Shown here in pieces: positions 12,945 to 18,938 of a stretch of 20,051 nucleotides of DNA; position 1 is the stretch's first letter, and every line of letters begins with the position of its first letter. Source of the stretch: a virus; IMG/VR virus record IMGVR_UViG_3300025417_000115, positions 1 through 20,051 of that record; one strand, 5' to 3'. The notes under the pieces were generated by a model. That model was given only the letters and a program-made list of their open reading frames with translations. It searched no databases and was not told where the DNA came from. Made by a program: the position numbers and the translations under genes.

Positions 12945-14015
12945 TTAACCTCCTCCCCAGTTATTACCACTATAATCAATTGTACCATTTGGGTTAGTTG
13001 GCATTGAACCACAACCAATATTAGGAATAGGATTACCACTGTTTATGCCAGCTGTTCCACTTGCATTTCTAGCAGCTTGAGTAGCATCACTAACCGTATT
13101 TCCTGCGCAACCAAACAGATATTTTGATATTGAGCACATAGCACTTCCAATGCCTGAGCCAATAGATTTTCCAAGAGCTGTACAACTGATACCAGCTGCC
13201 AATGCACCAATACCTGCAATTTGCTGTAAAGGCGATGCTGCATAAGCTCCGGGAATTGGACCTGTGTAAGACTGAGCAGTACTTGTTGGCATTGTATAGC
13301 CACGAAGTAATGCAGACTCGTTGGTTAATTGCTGTAATGGGAATAACTGTTGATTCTGTGCAATGGTTTGTTGCTGTGCACCTAGTGTAGAGAGTGCATT
13401 AACACAGCCTAGTCCTAAGTTCTGTTGTGTTGTTGCTAAATTACCAAGAGTATTAGCAGCTGCTAACTTATTTGCTTGGCACTGTTGTAATGCTTGTTCT
13501 TGTAACTGTGTAATGCCTAAGTCTGCATTTGCAATATTCTCTGCAAGAGCACCAGCACCTCTAGTTGAGCCAAACTGACCGGTTCCAACTATGCCTGATG
13601 TGGTCTGTGGTGCCAGATTCATAGCAATATTGGATTGACCATAATTGCCAACAGCGCATGCTAAATTAGTTCCTTTAACTTGATTAGCGGCGCAAATGGC
13701 AGCATTTAATGTAGGCTGATAATTGCCTGCATTCTTAGCTACTTGACAAAATGCTTGTTGTTGTAATGGCTGAGCACCAACATACTGAGCATTTGATGCT
13801 GCTTGCTGACCTTGATTTGCAAGATTGCTTAAATAGCAAGTATAAAACTGAGGAGCAGCTGTAGCCGTTGTCTGTGTGGTCGTAATATTCGGAAGTGCAG
13901 CTCCTTGAGTAAAGGTGCCACCTGAAGGAGAACCTGCCGTTACTCCAAGATTCGGAACTGCAGGATTACTGGAAGCTATTGGCCCAGACGGAAGTGTTGA
14001 AGTTGGTAATGCCAT
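12945..14015 (-). CDS. Gln/Ala-rich virion protein with ten cysteines (356 aa)
   Basis: A 356-aa protein of low complexity, rich in Ala, Gln, Asn, Gly and Thr. It has ten cysteines (C60, C90, C108, C120, C179, C204, C268, C284, C293, C335). The central part (60-240) is helical with repeated L-x-N-L and Q-Q patterns; a hydrophobic Gly/Ala stretch at about 264-292 (I-A-G-I-G-A-L-A-A-G-I-S and on) could insert in a membrane. The end is a Gly/Asn-rich tail closing in W-G-G-G. It is placed among putative ejection proteins, which often have such segments. No family is named with certainty. Cysteines are unusual in virion proteins of this type and are shared with the preceding gene product. A two-nt gap follows before the M15 protein gene. 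Confidence 0.7.
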   Translation of the reverse strand: MALPTSTLPSGPIASSNPAVPNLGVTAGSPSGGTFTQGAALPNITTTQTTATAAPQFYTCYLSNLANQGQQAASNAQYVGAQPLQQQAFCQVAKNAGNYQPTLNAAICAANQVKGTNLACAVGNYGQSNIAMNLAPQTTSGIVGTGQFGSTRGAGALAENIANADLGITQLQEQALQQCQANKLAAANTLGNLATTQQNLGLGCVNALSTLGAQQQTIAQNQQLFPLQQLTNESALLRGYTMPTSTAQSYTGPIPGAYAASPLQQIAGIGALAAGISCTALGKSIGSGIGSAMCSISKYLFGCAGNTVSDATQAARNASGTAGINSGNPIPNIGCGSMPTNPNGTIDYSGNNWGGG

Positions 14016-14017
14016 AA

Positions 14018-15154
14018 TTAACCTTTCGAATGCCGTTTAAGTGCTTCTTTCATATATGCCAATGGAGATGCTTTTGGAGGAATCTTATCCGAAGAAGCTG
14101 ATCTCTTATGCTCACGTAATGACTCTCTAAAATGATCTAAGAGCTTTGCACCTGCATCACTTGAACCGTTACCCAAAGCAGCAACAGTGTCAGCGTCAAA
14201 CACATACTCGCCATCAGCGAGCATAGCAGGAATATCATCAGATTGACCATCGCCTTTACCTTTTACATAATGACCAGTAGCCCCTGTGACAAATTCAGGT
14301 ACGTGTTCTCCATGCTCTTGATGTTCTTCATGCTGAGCACCGCCTGCTTTTTGTCCGCTAAGTAATTTTAATCCGGAATTCATTAATGCGCCAGATCTAT
14401 TTCTTGTACTTTGATCTTGGAATCGTTGAATAATGTCAGGCTGATAACCACCTTCTGCAGCCTCAGGAACTTCATAAGGCGCTACATAAGAAGACTGTAC
14501 AGGGATCCCTGTAGGATCGCCGACTCGTAAGTTTGTAGCAGCTACAGTTGGATCCACCACAGATGTTGGTTGCTCTGTAGGCACTCTTAACTGCTGCAAA
14601 GGTGACAAAATATTAGGTGCTGCGCCACTAACAGCTGCACCGGCTAATGCAGGGCTTTGTAATGGAGTAGGAATGGCACCAGATCCGCCTGTACCACCTG
14701 CCAACATATTATTCCCTGTAGAACCTAATGCGCTTCCAACGTTTCCTTGTGTTGTCCTTGAATTTGCAGCATTTGCACCTGCTGACGGCCCTGTTAATGC
14801 GCCTGCAATGGTCTTAGCAACTGGCGATGCAATAGCGCCTATGACGCATTTAACTCCGGGCAAAGGAATAATAGGAGGAACTACAGGTGGCGGTGTAGGT
14901 AATCCTGCATTAGGGCATGTAGGAATCTGTCCTTCATATTGACAAGGAATTGGTTGATCAGAGGAAACAGGAGGCTGTGTATCTGCAGGCGGTGTTGCGC
15001 CATCACCCGGAGTGCTTGTAGGGCCACTATCTGTAGGAGGGTTAAAAGGATCACAACTCGGAATACAGTTATATTGGCAAATTAAACAGCCAAGCTCACA
15101 TGCAATAAAACATCCGATAATACAGTCCACAATTGGAATTGCTTCGCCGCCCAT
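14018..15154 (-). CDS. Virion-associated protein with Cys ladder, His ladder and conserved phage C-terminal motif
   Basis: The 378-aa protein has four zones. Residues 11-34 hold seven cysteines (11, 15, 19, 23, 26, 30, 34) in a hydrophobic setting. Residues 36-100 are Pro-rich with three more cysteines (71, 80, 103 just after). A Gly/Ala-rich linker follows. Near 275-284 four histidines sit at three-residue steps (H-E-E-H-Q-E-H-G-E-H). The C-terminal part (about 299-350) contains K-G-x-G-D-G-Q-S-D-D-I-P-A-M-L then D-G-E-Y-V and A-L-G-N-G-S, which I recognise as a motif widespread in uncharacterised phage structural proteins. The location in the late operon agrees. The exact virion role is unknown. 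The Cys-rich start lacks the basic residues and length of a normal signal peptide. Confidence 0.72.
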   Translation of the reverse strand: MGGEAIPIVDCIIGCFIACELGCLICQYNCIPSCDPFNPPTDSGPTSTPGDGATPPADTQPPVSSDQPIPCQYEGQIPTCPNAGLPTPPPVVPPIIPLPGVKCVIGAIASPVAKTIAGALTGPSAGANAANSRTTQGNVGSALGSTGNNMLAGGTGGSGAIPTPLQSPALAGAAVSGAAPNILSPLQQLRVPTEQPTSVVDPTVAATNLRVGDPTGIPVQSSYVAPYEVPEAAEGGYQPDIIQRFQDQSTRNRSGALMNSGLKLLSGQKAGGAQHEEHQEHGEHVPEFVTGATGHYVKGKGDGQSDDIPAMLADGEYVFDADTVAALGNGSSDAGAKLLDHFRESLREHKRSASSDKIPPKASPLAYMKEALKRHSKG

Positions 15155-15157
15155 AAT

Positions 15158-15610
15158 TTACTCCGTCACTATTGTATAGATTTTTTCAAAAAAGTTAGCC
15201 CCTATTCTTTCAAGAATCGGACTATAGTCTAAGAACGGCTTAACATGAAACATAATCCTTTGAGGATTACGTTTCTTAATCTCTTCAGTCGTCCATTTAA
15301 TAAATTTCACACCTGTCATGCCTTTTCTATAATCTGGGCTTATATACAATACATCAGAATTAGCTGTAGTACTATCTGCATAATGGATATGTTTTGTTAC
15401 GAACCATAAACTATAACCAATAAGCTTTCCATCATCTCTAATCGTATGTATTTCTAAAACTCCACTTTTATAAAACTTGTTGTATAACTTTAAATCCGGT
15501 TTTAACTTAATTACATCTTTACGTTCTGCTATTTCTTTGTAATGCTTTTTAAATAAATCAAGTGCCTCTGTCGTAAATGGCTCAGGAGACTCTTTCTGAA
15601 ATGTTATCAT
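15158..15610 (-). CDS. GNAT-family N-acetyltransferase-like protein
   Basis: A 150-aa protein with a GNAT outline: I-R-D-D-G-K-L-I-G-Y strand pair (57-66), a long D-V-L-Y-I-S-P-D-Y strand (86-94) leading into R95-K-G97-x2-G100 in the acetyl-CoA pyrophosphate-binding position, then a helix (V-K-F-I-K-W-T-T-E-E-I-K-K) and a terminal strand region with I-G-A-N-F-F-E-K-I-Y. The R-x-G-x2-G loop differs slightly from the usual Q/R-x2-G-x-G/A. GNAT proteins of this type are common near tail or portal genes in podovirus-like phages, with unknown substrates. The ATG overlaps the preceding cupin gene by 29 nt and its ribosome binding site is weak, so translation may depend on that upstream gene. Confidence 0.75.
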   Translation of the reverse strand: MITFQKESPEPFTTEALDLFKKHYKEIAERKDVIKLKPDLKLYNKFYKSGVLEIHTIRDDGKLIGYSLWFVTKHIHYADSTTANSDVLYISPDYRKGMTGVKFIKWTTEEIKKRNPQRIMFHVKPFLDYSPILERIGANFFEKIYTIVTE

Positions 15611-16094
15611 TTAAATTTTGTTCCAAAATTTTCGAATGTACTTCACCTACAGGTTCACCTTCCCAGTTCGTTGTAACTGATACTGGGTCTTTATCTTTCC
15701 AATGCTCAAAACTTAAAAATGCACCACCTTCTTTTCCTATTAGCAACCAATGAGGTATGCCATCGGGAGAACTAACGGTCTTTCCAAGCAAAGCATGAGT
15801 TCCATCTTCTTTTTCAGTTTGCCACTGACTAACATCAGGATTATCTCTGCCTTCTAAATTGAATTGTATATTACCGCCTAGATATACAAAGCATGAATCA
15901 ACACCGGGGTGCGTATGCTTTGGAGATGTGCTATGAGGCTCGGTAATATAAAGCTCAACCTGATATTGACCTTCTCTAAATAAACATAGAGACATAGCAT
16001 TGTCAGTATAGAAAACAGGATTATGAAATGGTGGTCTTAATGGTGAACCATTCTTAAAATACCAATCACGGAATTGCTCTACTGTCTTATGCAT
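15582..16094 (-). CDS. Cupin-like protein A (start revised to ATG 16094)
   Basis: A 170-aa single-domain cupin. Motif 1 is H60-x-H62-x3-D66-x6-G73, the standard H-x-H-x3-E-x6-G with Asp for Glu; motif 2 is P110-D-G112-I-P-H115, matching P-x-G-x2-H. The residues fit a metal-binding cupin site. The frame can be extended to a GTG at 16127 or ATG at 16118, but ATG 16094 has AAGGA upstream, gives an N-terminus that lines up with the paralogue encoded just upstream (T-V-E-Q-F against N-V-E-Q-F) and overlaps that gene by 8 nt instead of about 40. Cupins include dioxygenases, isomerases and sugar-binding proteins; the substrate is unknown. Location among virion genes is unusual. Confidence 0.75.
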   Translation of the reverse strand: MHKTVEQFRDWYFKNGSPLRPPFHNPVFYTDNAMSLCLFREGQYQVELYITEPHSTSPKHTHPGVDSCFVYLGGNIQFNLEGRDNPDVSQWQTEKEDGTHALLGKTVSSPDGIPHWLLIGKEGGAFLSFEHWKDKDPVSVTTNWEGEPVGEVHSKILEQNLNDNISERVS

Positions 16095-16575
16095 GATATT
16101 CCTTAATGGTCTGAGCATGCTTTTCACCTACAAGATCACCTTCCCAGTGCAATGTTACAGAAGAAGGATTATCTTTAAGCCAATGTTCAAATATTAGAAA
16201 TGAACCACCAGTAGACCCAGTTCTTAGTGCATGTGATTTACCGTCATTTTTCTCGGCAGTCTTGCCTAGTAACATATGAGCACCATTTTGCTTAGGCCAC
16301 TGATATGCAGATAAATCTTTATAGTTTCCATTTTCATCAGCAAATGAAAGATTCCCTGTTAAATACATTGAAATAGAATTAACATTTGGATGACTATGAA
16401 TAGGCGACTCTGTATTTGGTTTACAGATATACAACTCAACTTGAAACTGATCTTTTCTATACAAGCACATTGCATATGCAATATCAGTTGTATGAATGCA
16501 ATTCTTAAATGGCGGTTTCATAGGCCTTCCAGCTTTTAACCACCAATCTTTAAATTGTTCTACATTATTAAACAT
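16087..16575 (-). CDS. Cupin-like protein B, paralogue of cupin A
   Basis: A 162-aa protein that aligns with cupin A without gaps over at least the first 75 residues; by hand count 39 of those 75 positions are identical. The metal-binding positions are at the same numbers: H60, H62 and H115. It differs where cupin A keeps consensus: N66 replaces the acidic ligand and N110 replaces the proline of P-x-G-x2-H. Both share a P-P-F-x-N stretch (21-25) and a G-G-x-F-L-x-F-E-H-W segment after motif 2. It probably arose by tandem duplication followed by divergence. Its ATG overlaps the stop of the 120-aa gene by one base. The function is unknown. Confidence 0.75.
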   Translation of the reverse strand: MFNNVEQFKDWWLKAGRPMKPPFKNCIHTTDIAYAMCLYRKDQFQVELYICKPNTESPIHSHPNVNSISMYLTGNLSFADENGNYKDLSAYQWPKQNGAHMLLGKTAEKNDGKSHALRTGSTGGSFLIFEHWLKDNPSSVTLHWEGDLVGEKHAQTIKEYHA

Positions 16576-16937
16576 TATAGATAGATTGCCAATTTAGAAG
16601 GACTATGAGGTGAACGCATAATATGCGCATGATCCGCTGCCAATGCTTGCATTACTTTAGGGTTTTTTGATGAAGTATGTAATACTTTAATTCCATGCTT
16701 TCTAGCAACATCTAAAAAATATTTAATTGCACTAGCTAAAACCAATGGTGCATCAATTGTAATGAAATGTACATTTGCATTATGATCATCAATTTTTTTT
16801 AAATACATTAATGTATCATGCTTTTGTAATAAGTTGGCATCACTTTCATGAATATGCTTGCTTAACTTTGCTAAGATTGCATCAGACTTCATGCCTTTGC
16901 GGCCGGTTTCATATGCGATAATTTGTTCTGGTGTCAT
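16575..16937 (-). CDS. Unknown phage protein, 120 aa
   Basis: A 120-aa soluble protein. The N-terminal 45 residues are helical and basic; the rest alternates strands and helices: V-H-F-I-T-I-D-A (about 56-63), a helix S-A-I-K-Y-F-L-D-V-A-R-K, V-L-H-T-S-S-K-N (about 85-92), and a final S-P-S-K-L-A-I-Y-L. This strand-helix-strand order with D-A and late S-x-x-L-x-x-Y-L recalls small phage proteins sometimes placed near GNAT-like folds, but no catalytic motif is visible and I do not assign a function. It lies between the tail hub/80-aa pair and the cupins, with a single-base gap upstream and a one-base overlap downstream. Confidence 0.7.
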   Translation of the reverse strand: MTPEQIIAYETGRKGMKSDAILAKLSKHIHESDANLLQKHDTLMYLKKIDDHNANVHFITIDAPLVLASAIKYFLDVARKHGIKVLHTSSKNPKVMQALAADHAHIMRSPHSPSKLAIYL

Positions 16938-16938
16938 T

Positions 16939-17181
16939 TTAAAGTTGCCTTGTATCTACATTCATAATACCAACCAAAGATTCAGCCCATTGAGACCATT
17001 CATCAAAGCCTCTTGGATCAGGCACAGCTGAATTTACAAAGTAACCAATACCTTGCATACCGTCTGCCCAGTCTCTCCATTTGTCTTCAGTCACTGTGCC
17101 TAACTGATTTGCTGCAAACAGTTCAGCCATTCTAGAACACCAATGGTCCCATGTTAGTCCGCGTGGATCATAGACTACCAT
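16939..17181 (-). CDS. Small virion-operon protein with three W-x2-W repeats
   Basis: An 80-aa acidic protein containing three copies of a pattern W-x2-W-[C/A]-x2-[M/L]-x2-[L/I]: W11/W14, W35/W38 and W62/W65. Copies one and three are preceded by D-P-R-G (5-8 and 55-58). Each copy probably forms a short amphipathic helix with tryptophans on one face. I recall small proteins with F/W-x2-W-A motifs beside the gp10-like gene in podoviruses, but no role is known to me. It shares one base with the stop of the tail hub gene (ATG at 17179-17181, TAA at 17181-17183), so the two are translationally coupled and may interact. Confidence 0.75.
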   Translation of the reverse strand: MVVYDPRGLTWDHWCSRMAELFAANQLGTVTEDKWRDWADGMQGIGYFVNSAVPDPRGFDEWSQWAESLVGIMNVDTRQL

Positions 17182-18938
17182 TATGGGTTACCTGTAGAGC
17201 GTTCGTCGCCAATATCAGCGCTTAATAAGACATTACCAAGTTGGTAATTTCCACCTTCTGTATTACTTGTAAAACGGAGTCTCATTTCACGTCTTTGTTC
17301 ACGCATATCTATTTTAAGAGTATCAGGATCAAAATTATAAGGACCAGTAGTAATGTCTGTGTCATCAGCATAGCCTTTACCTGTTACTGTCACTTGCATA
17401 GTGCCTGACTGCACAAAGTCAGGTTCAATACGTTCTAATCGAATCCATTTATTTGGTCCTGTTACAGATAACTGACCAGGGCCGCCTCGTACCCAGCCAA
17501 TACTGTTTGTCTCAAAAAATGATTCTACAGCATTTACAGTACTTAAAAAGATGGCATCAGTTCCGATTTCATGCTGCCAGATTGTATATGTGCCAGCAAC
17601 GTTTTGAGCATTTTCAGCCCAAATAGGATAACGGAACACTTCAGAGAATACGCCTGCTGAGCGATTAGCTGCAGGAGCAAAACCGGCATCGTACCAAGTC
17701 TTTTCACGTACATTGTAAATAATAGCATTATTGCACTCAGTAGCAGTGCCTGCAGGATAAAACCACCAGATCTCACCCCACCGTGGAATCTTAATTGCCC
17801 AAACTTTTTGGCGTTGCACATAATTTAAGTTATCAAAAAAGTAATTTTGATTAATTGAGTTTGGGATTTCTTGGACAACACCGTTATACATTAAGAATCG
17901 ATCTACACCAACCCAATAAAATATACCATCATACTCAATAACACAAGAACTTGACATGATAGATGTCTGAGTACTAATAATGTCATAGCGCCAATATAAG
18001 ACAGATGATCCTACAGTTGTAGGACTATAGGACACACGAGTAAGCTGATCAAGTGACCAGAATAAACCGGAAGGTGATGTGGTTCCGCCTCTAAGTGCCA
18101 TGCCTTTGACTACTTTAGTGCTGGATACATTATTTGCGTTTGAATCAGCGCCGACCCAGTTTGTAAAGTCGCCTGCTGAGTTATTTTGTATTAAGCCATT
18201 ATTCCCATACACAAAAAGATATGGGTAAACCATGCAAGCTCCGCCTGACACCGAGATATTATTATCAAAAGTCAGTGTTTGTGAACCTGATCCACCACCA
18301 TTACTTAAAGTCACAGTAGTCGTAGACCCTGTAACGGATACTAATGTCACTACAGTATTTGCAGGTAAGCTAGCACCTGTGACTGTCTGACCTACTCCAA
18401 TCTTATAGTTGGCAGAGCTAATGACAAATGATGTACCTGTCAATGTACCAGTTGCTGTAAAGACACCAACTTTGGACAAAGCGCCATATGGAAAGTTTCC
18501 TGAAAGTACAGGAACATTAATCGTACTGTCAATGTCTAATAAATTCTGACCTGGGTGAGCAACCACTTGAAGCTGACCTGTTCCATTGGAGTTATATCCA
18601 ATATCAAATTGCCATAAATTATTAGGACTTGCTGTAAAATTGTTTAATGTAATATTGGTCGGACCTGAACCAACACCATCATCATTATCAGTTTGCCAAG
18701 CTTGCACATAGTTCTGTGACCCTGAATAAACATAGTTTAGACCTTGCTGAGATTGCATGGTCATACCACGACTAATTTCAAGAGCATTTAAAAAGATGCC
18801 TTTATATCCACCTATCTTACGTGGTCGACCACGTTGAAATCGTACCCATTGCCCATCCACATACATCGGAGAGTCAAATTGAGTACCGTCTCGCTGTATT
18901 CCAGCAGGAATATTTAGAGAGATGACATTAGCTGTCAA
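17181..18938 (-). CDS. P22 gp10-like packaged DNA stabilization / tail hub protein
   Basis: A 585-aa beta-rich protein. The N-terminal segment (about 21-47: F-D-S-P-M-Y-V-D-G-Q-W-V-R-F then G-R-P-R-K-I-G-G-Y) is typical of the P22 gp10-like hub family, whose members form a ring below the portal to plug the tail and hold packaged DNA. Later W/Y-rich repeats (Y-W-R-Y-D, W-V-G-V-D-R-F, W-A-I-K-I-P-R-W-G-E-I-W-W) look like propeller blades. Residues about 161-224 are a Gly/Thr/Val-rich insert. The start is TTG at 18936-18938, supported by GGAGGA at 18944-18949 with a 5-nt spacer; no in-frame ATG follows until M25. The stop of the upstream gene overlaps the start by 4 nt. Confidence 0.8.
   Translation of the reverse strand: MTANVISLNIPAGIQRDGTQFDSPMYVDGQWVRFQRGRPRKIGGYKGIFLNALEISRGMTMQSQQGLNYVYSGSQNYVQAWQTDNDDGVGSGPTNITLNNFTASPNNLWQFDIGYNSNGTGQLQVVAHPGQNLLDIDSTINVPVLSGNFPYGALSKVGVFTATGTLTGTSFVISSANYKIGVGQTVTGASLPANTVVTLVSVTGSTTTVTLSNGGGSGSQTLTFDNNISVSGGACMVYPYLFVYGNNGLIQNNSAGDFTNWVGADSNANNVSSTKVVKGMALRGGTTSPSGLFWSLDQLTRVSYSPTTVGSSVLYWRYDIISTQTSIMSSSCVIEYDGIFYWVGVDRFLMYNGVVQEIPNSINQNYFFDNLNYVQRQKVWAIKIPRWGEIWWFYPAGTATECNNAIIYNVREKTWYDAGFAPAANRSAGVFSEVFRYPIWAENAQNVAGTYTIWQHEIGTDAIFLSTVNAVESFFETNSIGWVRGGPGQLSVTGPNKWIRLERIEPDFVQSGTMQVTVTGKGYADDTDITTGPYNFDPDTLKIDMREQRREMRLRFTSNTEGGNYQLGNVLLSADIGDERSTGNP
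18267..18458 (-). other. Ig-like/beta insert domain in the tail hub protein
   Basis: This region codes for residues about 161-224. The protein changes from W/Y-containing blade sequence to T-A-T-G-T-L-T-G-T-S, then G-V-G-Q-T-V-T-G-A-S-L-P-A-N-T, then T-V-T-L-S-N-G-G-G-S-G-S-Q, and returns to blade sequence at 225. The 'G-x-x-V-x-G-x-x-I/L-P-A-N-T' element is a recurring module in phage surface proteins and is often thought to bind carbohydrate. Domain edges are approximate. Confidence 0.55.

Follow-up and report, generated by a model that had tools for sequence, protein, structure and literature searches.

The late virion operon of the phage analysed here carries an inserted pair of predicted metal-binding cupins, an optional and transferable cassette that would be co-translated in the order B-A and whose two copies appear to represent an undescribed, widespread phage cupin family. 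For a group of lake phages, our results suggest that these cupins may chemically modify two neighbouring virion proteins. The window, by which we mean the whole stretch of 20,051 nucleotides that was analysed (IMG/VR record IMGVR_UViG_3300025417_000115), encodes on its minus strand all the features given below with window coordinates. The first gene of the pair, cupin B, occupies positions 16087 to 16575 (162 aa) and overlaps the second, cupin A (15582 to 16094; 170 aa, or 181 aa from an alternative GTG start at 16127), by 8 nt. BLASTP aligned the two proteins without gaps, with 76 of 159 residues identical (E 2e-57). A sequence-only reading of the window had described them as tandem paralogues that align without gaps, counting by hand 39 identities in the first 75 residues and placing H60, H62 and H115 at the same numbers in both copies, all of which proved exact.

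The operon runs from a tail-fibre-like ORF through s585 (17181 to 18938), g80 (16939 to 17181), g120 (16575 to 16937), cupin B, cupin A, a GNAT gene (15158 to 15610) that is overlapped by cupin A over 29 nt, s378 (14018 to 15154) and s356 (12945 to 14015), and two more virion-operon proteins are encoded behind s356; genes of the operon overlap. The late virion setting that had been claimed for the cupins is confirmed by the match of s585, a conserved structural protein, to phrog_3287 (E 6.6e-31) and by tail-fibre PHROG matches in the surroundings. The tape-measure-like protein s378, which has a Cys-rich N-terminus, matches a PHROG of tail tape measures, and s356 is a second Cys-rich protein of the operon.

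The sequence-only reading had further proposed a conserved trio of GNAT and two cupins. The pair was indeed found in the same order across phages, but its linkage to the GNAT did not hold. The 150-aa GNAT matches phrog_1249 (acetyltransferase, E 8e-7), which supports the assignment, whereas the Pfam GNAT match stays under the cut-off. About 30 further contigs have it at this place in the virion operon without any cupin, and cupin pairs that keep the B-A order occur without a GNAT in unrelated phages; the trio was therefore rejected, and the GNAT is a resident of the operon that is independent of the cupins. In the cupin-less contigs the order is s585-g80-GNAT-s378 with a g80-GNAT spacing of 27-294 nt in all but L150 (772 nt). 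Because g80, a conserved gene that flanks the insert on the side opposite to the GNAT, and the GNAT nearly touch in these contigs, the insert can be defined as g120-cupin B-cupin A. Its first gene, g120 (120 aa), is present in every cupin-bearing virion module of the window type and absent from the cupin-less modules. Its AlphaFold2 model (pLDDT 85.7) was compared with the PDB by Foldseek, and all 50 matches listed (best E 3.4e-4) were either acetyltransferases of the GNAT family or entries with a GNAT domain, so that g120 is a predicted GNAT-fold ORF; no sequence-profile match to GNAT families was obtained for it. Sister phages that share these virion genes lack the cassette, and in other phages it is found outside virion operons, which marks it as accessory and argues against the earlier suggestion that the cupins are virion parts.

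An AlphaFold2 model of cupin A, made with 32 family members as input, had a mean pLDDT of 90.4, and its leading PDB matches were all cupins. We are thus confident in the predicted double-stranded beta-helix barrel of the cupin superfamily, as the earlier reading had assumed, and the 48% gapless identity of cupin B to cupin A indicates that it has the same barrel. The best Z score, 11.3, was obtained with archaeal phosphomannose isomerase and the CENP-C cupin domain, and values near 10 were found for D-lyxose isomerase, cysteine dioxygenase, DMSP lyase and KdgF. This comparison by Z is a re-ranking of PDB chains in which the absence of a family carries no meaning, and it singled out no one structural family; the likeness to isomerases is at the level of the fold and tied with many cupins. 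Cupin motif 1, HxHx(3-4)Ex6G, is present in cupin A as H60-T-H62-x3-D66-x6-G73 (HTHPGVD, 15897-15917), and the corresponding sequence of cupin B is HSHPNVN (H60/H62 at 16390-16398, N66 at 16378-16380). At motif 2, PxGxxH, cupin A has PDGIPH (H115 at 15750-15752) and cupin B NDGKSH (H115 at 16231-16233), with only Asp-Gly and the final His common to both. In a diverse set of family members, R40, Q45, E47, Y49, H60, H62, H115, W132, S139, G146, G150 and H153 (window cupin A numbering) are invariant, and both genes are under purifying selection with a dN/dS of about 0.06-0.18.

Neither cupin has a PHROG match or a Pfam match above the cut-off. The closest Pfam profile was PCO_ADO (PF07847; E 1.6e-5 to 2.7e-4), which scored 20.8 bits with cupin B and 22.5-24.9 bits with bacterial relatives, against a curated cut-off of 27, and did not match cupin A. 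It was the best Pfam profile over the HxHPG region for cupin B, for half of the 32 members scanned and for the bacterial relatives. To our knowledge, PCO_ADO enzymes have no acidic ligand after HxH; their iron site of three His without a carboxylate differs from that predicted for the phage family, nearly all members of which have Asp or Glu at position 66.

Relatives were collected by pattern-plus-tblastn scans, which returned 35, 16 and 61 cupin loci, and with a broader profile, which returned 243 viral relatives, 80 of them kept. No relative above threshold was found among cultured phages and plasmids. All contigs are metagenomic, many are fragments, near-identical contigs recur, and the number of independent contrasts is small. 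Tandem pairs are more common than single copies, accounting for about 28 of about 48 cupin locus groups (a count taken after hand removal of duplicates), and the remainder are single copies. Its recurrence in the same order in dozens of contigs, together with purifying selection, places the pair far beyond chance. The B-A order is also found in replication regions beside primase- and helicase-like genes (L007-L029), and in large phages tandem pairs lie beside tail-fibre-like and 2OG-Fe oxygenase genes (L213-L224). In a tree of the cupins, all copies B at closer range form one supported clade and copies A form two. Cupin A of the window is 77% identical to copy A of the unrelated phage L007 and only 57% identical to copy A of L038, although the s585 protein of L038 is 94% identical to that of the window, which shows that cupins pass from phage to phage; for copy A, such exchange has taken place independently of copy B.

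Several cupin loci have other unusual contexts. Three pairs in large phages (L213 3711-5996, L214 3504-5966 and L224 2749-6004) are flanked by 2OG-Fe oxygenases and by genes that by eye resemble radical SAM, ATP-pyrophosphatase and SDR genes, and these surroundings are possibly a metabolite cluster. In L230 (259-1880), two tandem cupins both carry an additional fused N-terminal domain, some 120 residues long and similar in the two. A scan of bacterial genomes gave three MAG contigs assigned to Methylotenera (L167 7998-8552), an alphaproteobacterium (L166 7971-8549) and Ferrovibrio (L165 7941-8501), each with a lone homologue among ORFs that look chromosomal; the homologue in L166 adjoins a TPR-sulfotransferase gene.

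A 2OG-Fe(II) oxygenase gene (PF13759) accompanies the pair. Of 19 other contigs that have the cupin pair in a window-type module, 14 gave a match above the cut-off, and the five negative contigs are 6.6-9.8 kb long and thus cover little of the upstream region. None was found in 21 cupin-less contigs of the same module or in the three single-cupin contigs tested. Over all cupin loci, PF13759 is near 14 of 28 pair groups and 0 of 17 single groups (Fisher P 3e-4, the groups not being independent). The gene lies between g80 and g120 in L005, L034 and L035. In the window phage it lies beyond the window end: the contig L047, which is 99.9% identical over 3.7 kb and is the phage's own, has it next to the tail-fibre genes, at a distance of about 3.3 kb on the upstream side of the tail-fibre-like ORF. 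The oxygenase gene is followed by a small ORF (74-92 aa) with an 'RFNKSRG' motif in L047 (2500-3374), L034 (5349-6283) and L118 (3426-4351), and the two genes form a mobile unit that is placed either in the tail-fibre region or in the g80-g120 gap. Among replication-type cupin phages, only the L074 contig yielded oxygenases of the PF13640 type. T4-like cyanophages carry multiple copies of 2OG-Fe oxygenase genes (PMC9146016), and the large-phage cases consequently count little.

The pair is also associated with cysteines in the virion proteins encoded just behind the GNAT, an association that was noticed in the data before being tested. The s378 protein of the window has 10 Cys (2.6% over the full-length protein), seven of which are at residues 11-34, spaced 3-4 apart, and s356 also has 10. 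Across the pair-bearing phages of the window clade, s378 has 10-31 Cys (3.7-8%) and s356 8-16 (0 in L035). Both proteins have 0 Cys in cupin-less or single-cupin relatives of the module, except in the outlying L163 (2 Cys), and the third virion-operon protein has no Cys in any relative. On a phage tree built from s585 and the GNAT, the state of the pair requires at least four changes, which are forced by well-supported branches. Three sister contrasts could be made (L035/L105, the L004 clade/L104 and the window clade/L205), and in all three the pair, PF13759 and a Cys-rich s378 occur together on one side, whereas on the other there is at most one cupin, PF13759 is missing and s378 has 0 Cys. 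L057/L125 is outside the oxygenase comparison, and the statement that these features change together covers the checkable changes only.

Alignment to the closest homologue free of the cupin pair showed that 24 of 37 Cys in s378 and s356 face Asp or Asn and that none is conserved. For Cys of other proteins of the same phages the figure is 2 of 64, most facing Ser, Val and other residues, with Cys conserved in 63 positions; the lineages in this comparison are not independent. By lineage, the window clade has 5 of 6 Cys facing Asp/Asn (P 1e-4), and significance for L004 depends on the partner chosen. Since conversion of an Asp or Asn codon to Cys needs two base changes, mutation bias is unlikely to explain the pattern.

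An out-of-sample test with a profile built on the C-terminus of s378 did not support the association. The profile recovered 79 new loci, all of them free of cupins over a distance of 6 kb, and most have Cys-free proteins; nine loci, however, are Cys-rich in s378 and/or s356, with up to 79 Cys, and no cupin was found on these nine contigs, which are 8-35 kb long and probably incomplete. Enrichment in Cys thus also arises without visible cupins, and the Cys-cupin association is tight only inside the GNAT-bearing clade. The preference for Asp/Asn was weaker in the nine-locus set (13 of 59 against a 10% background). In L344 (4243-7640) and L335 (3481-7650), whose contigs have no cupin, the tape-measure-like orthologue has 72-79 Cys and the next protein 21-29. 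Two of the nine, L314 and L328, have extra ORFs in the insert slot. One of these in L314 (2469-3919) is ketosynthase-like, and a similar gene in L075 (2068-3481) adjoins a single cupin and is preceded by a weak match to a phosphopantetheine site (ACP-like), so other enzymes may do comparable work.

We infer that the cupins bind metal and are catalytic, that A and B most likely form a heteromeric non-haem metal enzyme made with the virion proteins, and that cysteine is the substrate. In the window clade this enzyme would carry out redox tailoring of cysteines in s378 and s356, acting together with a 2OG-Fe(II) oxygenase whose gene lies at another place in these phages. Our guess at the chemistry is thiol oxygenation, cross-linking or another modification. 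We tentatively favour such a late-expressed tailoring enzyme, at a probability somewhat short of even. The oxygenase and Cys associations lend indirect support to the earlier idea that the cupins may modify virion components, and the thiol dioxygenases of PCO_ADO are the nearest Pfam profile, below its cut-off. Against cysteine tailoring stand the nine distant Cys-rich loci without a cupin, the replication-region phages with a pair in which no 2OG-Fe oxygenase was found, and the replication-region and large-phage pairs, for which no comparable Cys-rich virion protein pair was seen on the contigs available. The independent exchange of copy A also fits badly with an obligate, co-evolved heteromer, and the acidic ligand that sets the family apart from PCO_ADO, like the weaker Asp/Asn preference in the wider set, counts against this reading as well. 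A more specific version appears unlikely to us: the pair and the oxygenase would oxygenate the Cys that replace Asp or Asn in a pair of internal virion proteins, for example to sulfinate, an isostere of Asp, and the virion would need the modified residue. This version stays speculative because the preference for Asp/Asn, clear within the cupin clade, weakens outside it.

The main rival to cysteine tailoring is an unrelated metabolic role, in which the pair would be an accessory small-molecule enzyme, such as a sugar isomerase or a ring-cleaving or thiol dioxygenase, that alters host metabolism or a surface component, with the Cys link due to hitch-hiking in a few lineages. We regard this as quite possible, if clearly below even. 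The closest folds (sugar isomerases, quercetinase, cysteine dioxygenase, KdgF and DMSP lyase, none outstanding) are consistent with it, as are the many pairs outside virion operons, the lone homologues on bacterial chromosomes, and metabolic neighbours such as the radical SAM-like and SDR-like ORFs of L213 and L214 and the ACP- and ketosynthase-like genes of L075. It leaves unexplained why the checkable gains and losses of the pair match the Cys state of s378, and a link to glycosyltransferases, which was tested, is absent in the window lineage. A glycosyltransferase or sugar-pathway partner was in fact rejected, as PF00535 is absent from the window-lineage contigs and scattered elsewhere.

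Two further readings give one or both cupins a non-catalytic role. That the pair serves as a structural or chaperone-like assembly protein of the virion, binding and not catalysing, would suit its setting among overlapping virion genes and its position behind tail-fibre-like genes in some large phages (L215-L222); its absence from sisters with the same virion genes, its replication-region location elsewhere and the His ligands conserved across the family make this improbable. The other reading makes copy A the enzyme and gives copy B an inactive, structural part, after the catalytic/structural split that had been put forward from D66 and P110 in cupin A and N66 and N110 in cupin B. These residues are as described, and whenever a copy erodes it is always copy B: all metal ligands are lost from copy B in L074 and L080 only, and no copy A has lost any. 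Every copy A has Asp or Glu at residue 66, as do the singletons, and the acidic ligand of copy B is replaced by Asn in the window phage, Gln in L025 and Ser in L125. Most copies B, however, keep the three His plus Glu and are under purifying selection, so a catalytic/structural split is not general. The Asn of the window, with the codon AAT in three assemblies, is nearly private to this phage and was not found in its nearest relatives. We therefore consider this reading rather unlikely. An apparent loss of H115 from copy B of L086 was set aside as a probable alignment shift (RKGQSHGAG, by eye). The shortened copy B of L074 (7609-7986), which has none of H60, H62 and H115, is nevertheless retained, followed by a copy A that is intact and by two genes for 2OG-Fe oxygenases.

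Should cysteine tailoring by the cupins be borne out, it would provide a rare instance in which a phage uses enzymes to modify proteins of its own virion, and one of the numerous accessory genes found in late operons would gain a function. The proposed substrate is testable, with 10-31 Cys in s378 where the pair is present and 0 Cys in s378 and s356 of the pair-less sisters. What is new here is an unnamed family of phage cupins that keeps its pair architecture even as the cassette is transferred among unrelated phages, and, in the GNAT-bearing clade, a pair that changes together with PF13759 and with Cys enrichment of virion proteins wherever this could be checked. The literature searched, which gave partial coverage, contained no description of such a cupin pair in phages, in agreement with the earlier statement that no described phage system was known.

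Among characterised proteins, small single-domain cupins such as archaeal phosphomannose isomerase (7zvy, 7zvm) and D-lyxose isomerase (7nzo-q) are among the closest, with the predicted barrel (Z 9.7-11.3) and the HxH...D/E...His metal-site pattern in common. The phage cupins differ from the isomerases in their low identity (about 15-21%), in occurring as a tandem pair, and in having extra N- and C-terminal parts with the signature R-x4-Q-x-E-x-Y ... FE(H/K)W ... SV..nW.G...G..H. The match to PCO_ADO, the profile of plant cysteine oxidases and cysteamine dioxygenase, covers about 50 residues of the phage cupins, which have an acidic residue after HxH that PCO_ADO enzymes are not known to have. 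Jumbo cyanophages have cassettes in which 2OG-Fe(II) oxygenases and cupin-like DSBH proteins are encoded together (PMC7824862). In the part of that account available, these are large metabolite and sugar clusters, unlike the window insert, and that part describes neither a cupin pair in a virion operon nor a link to Cys-rich virion proteins. Known phage GNAT acetyltransferases include Rac of phiKMV-like phages (PMC7552054); the window GNAT appears to belong to the same family as these and phrog_1249 and is distinguished by its residence in the virion operon, independent of the cupins.
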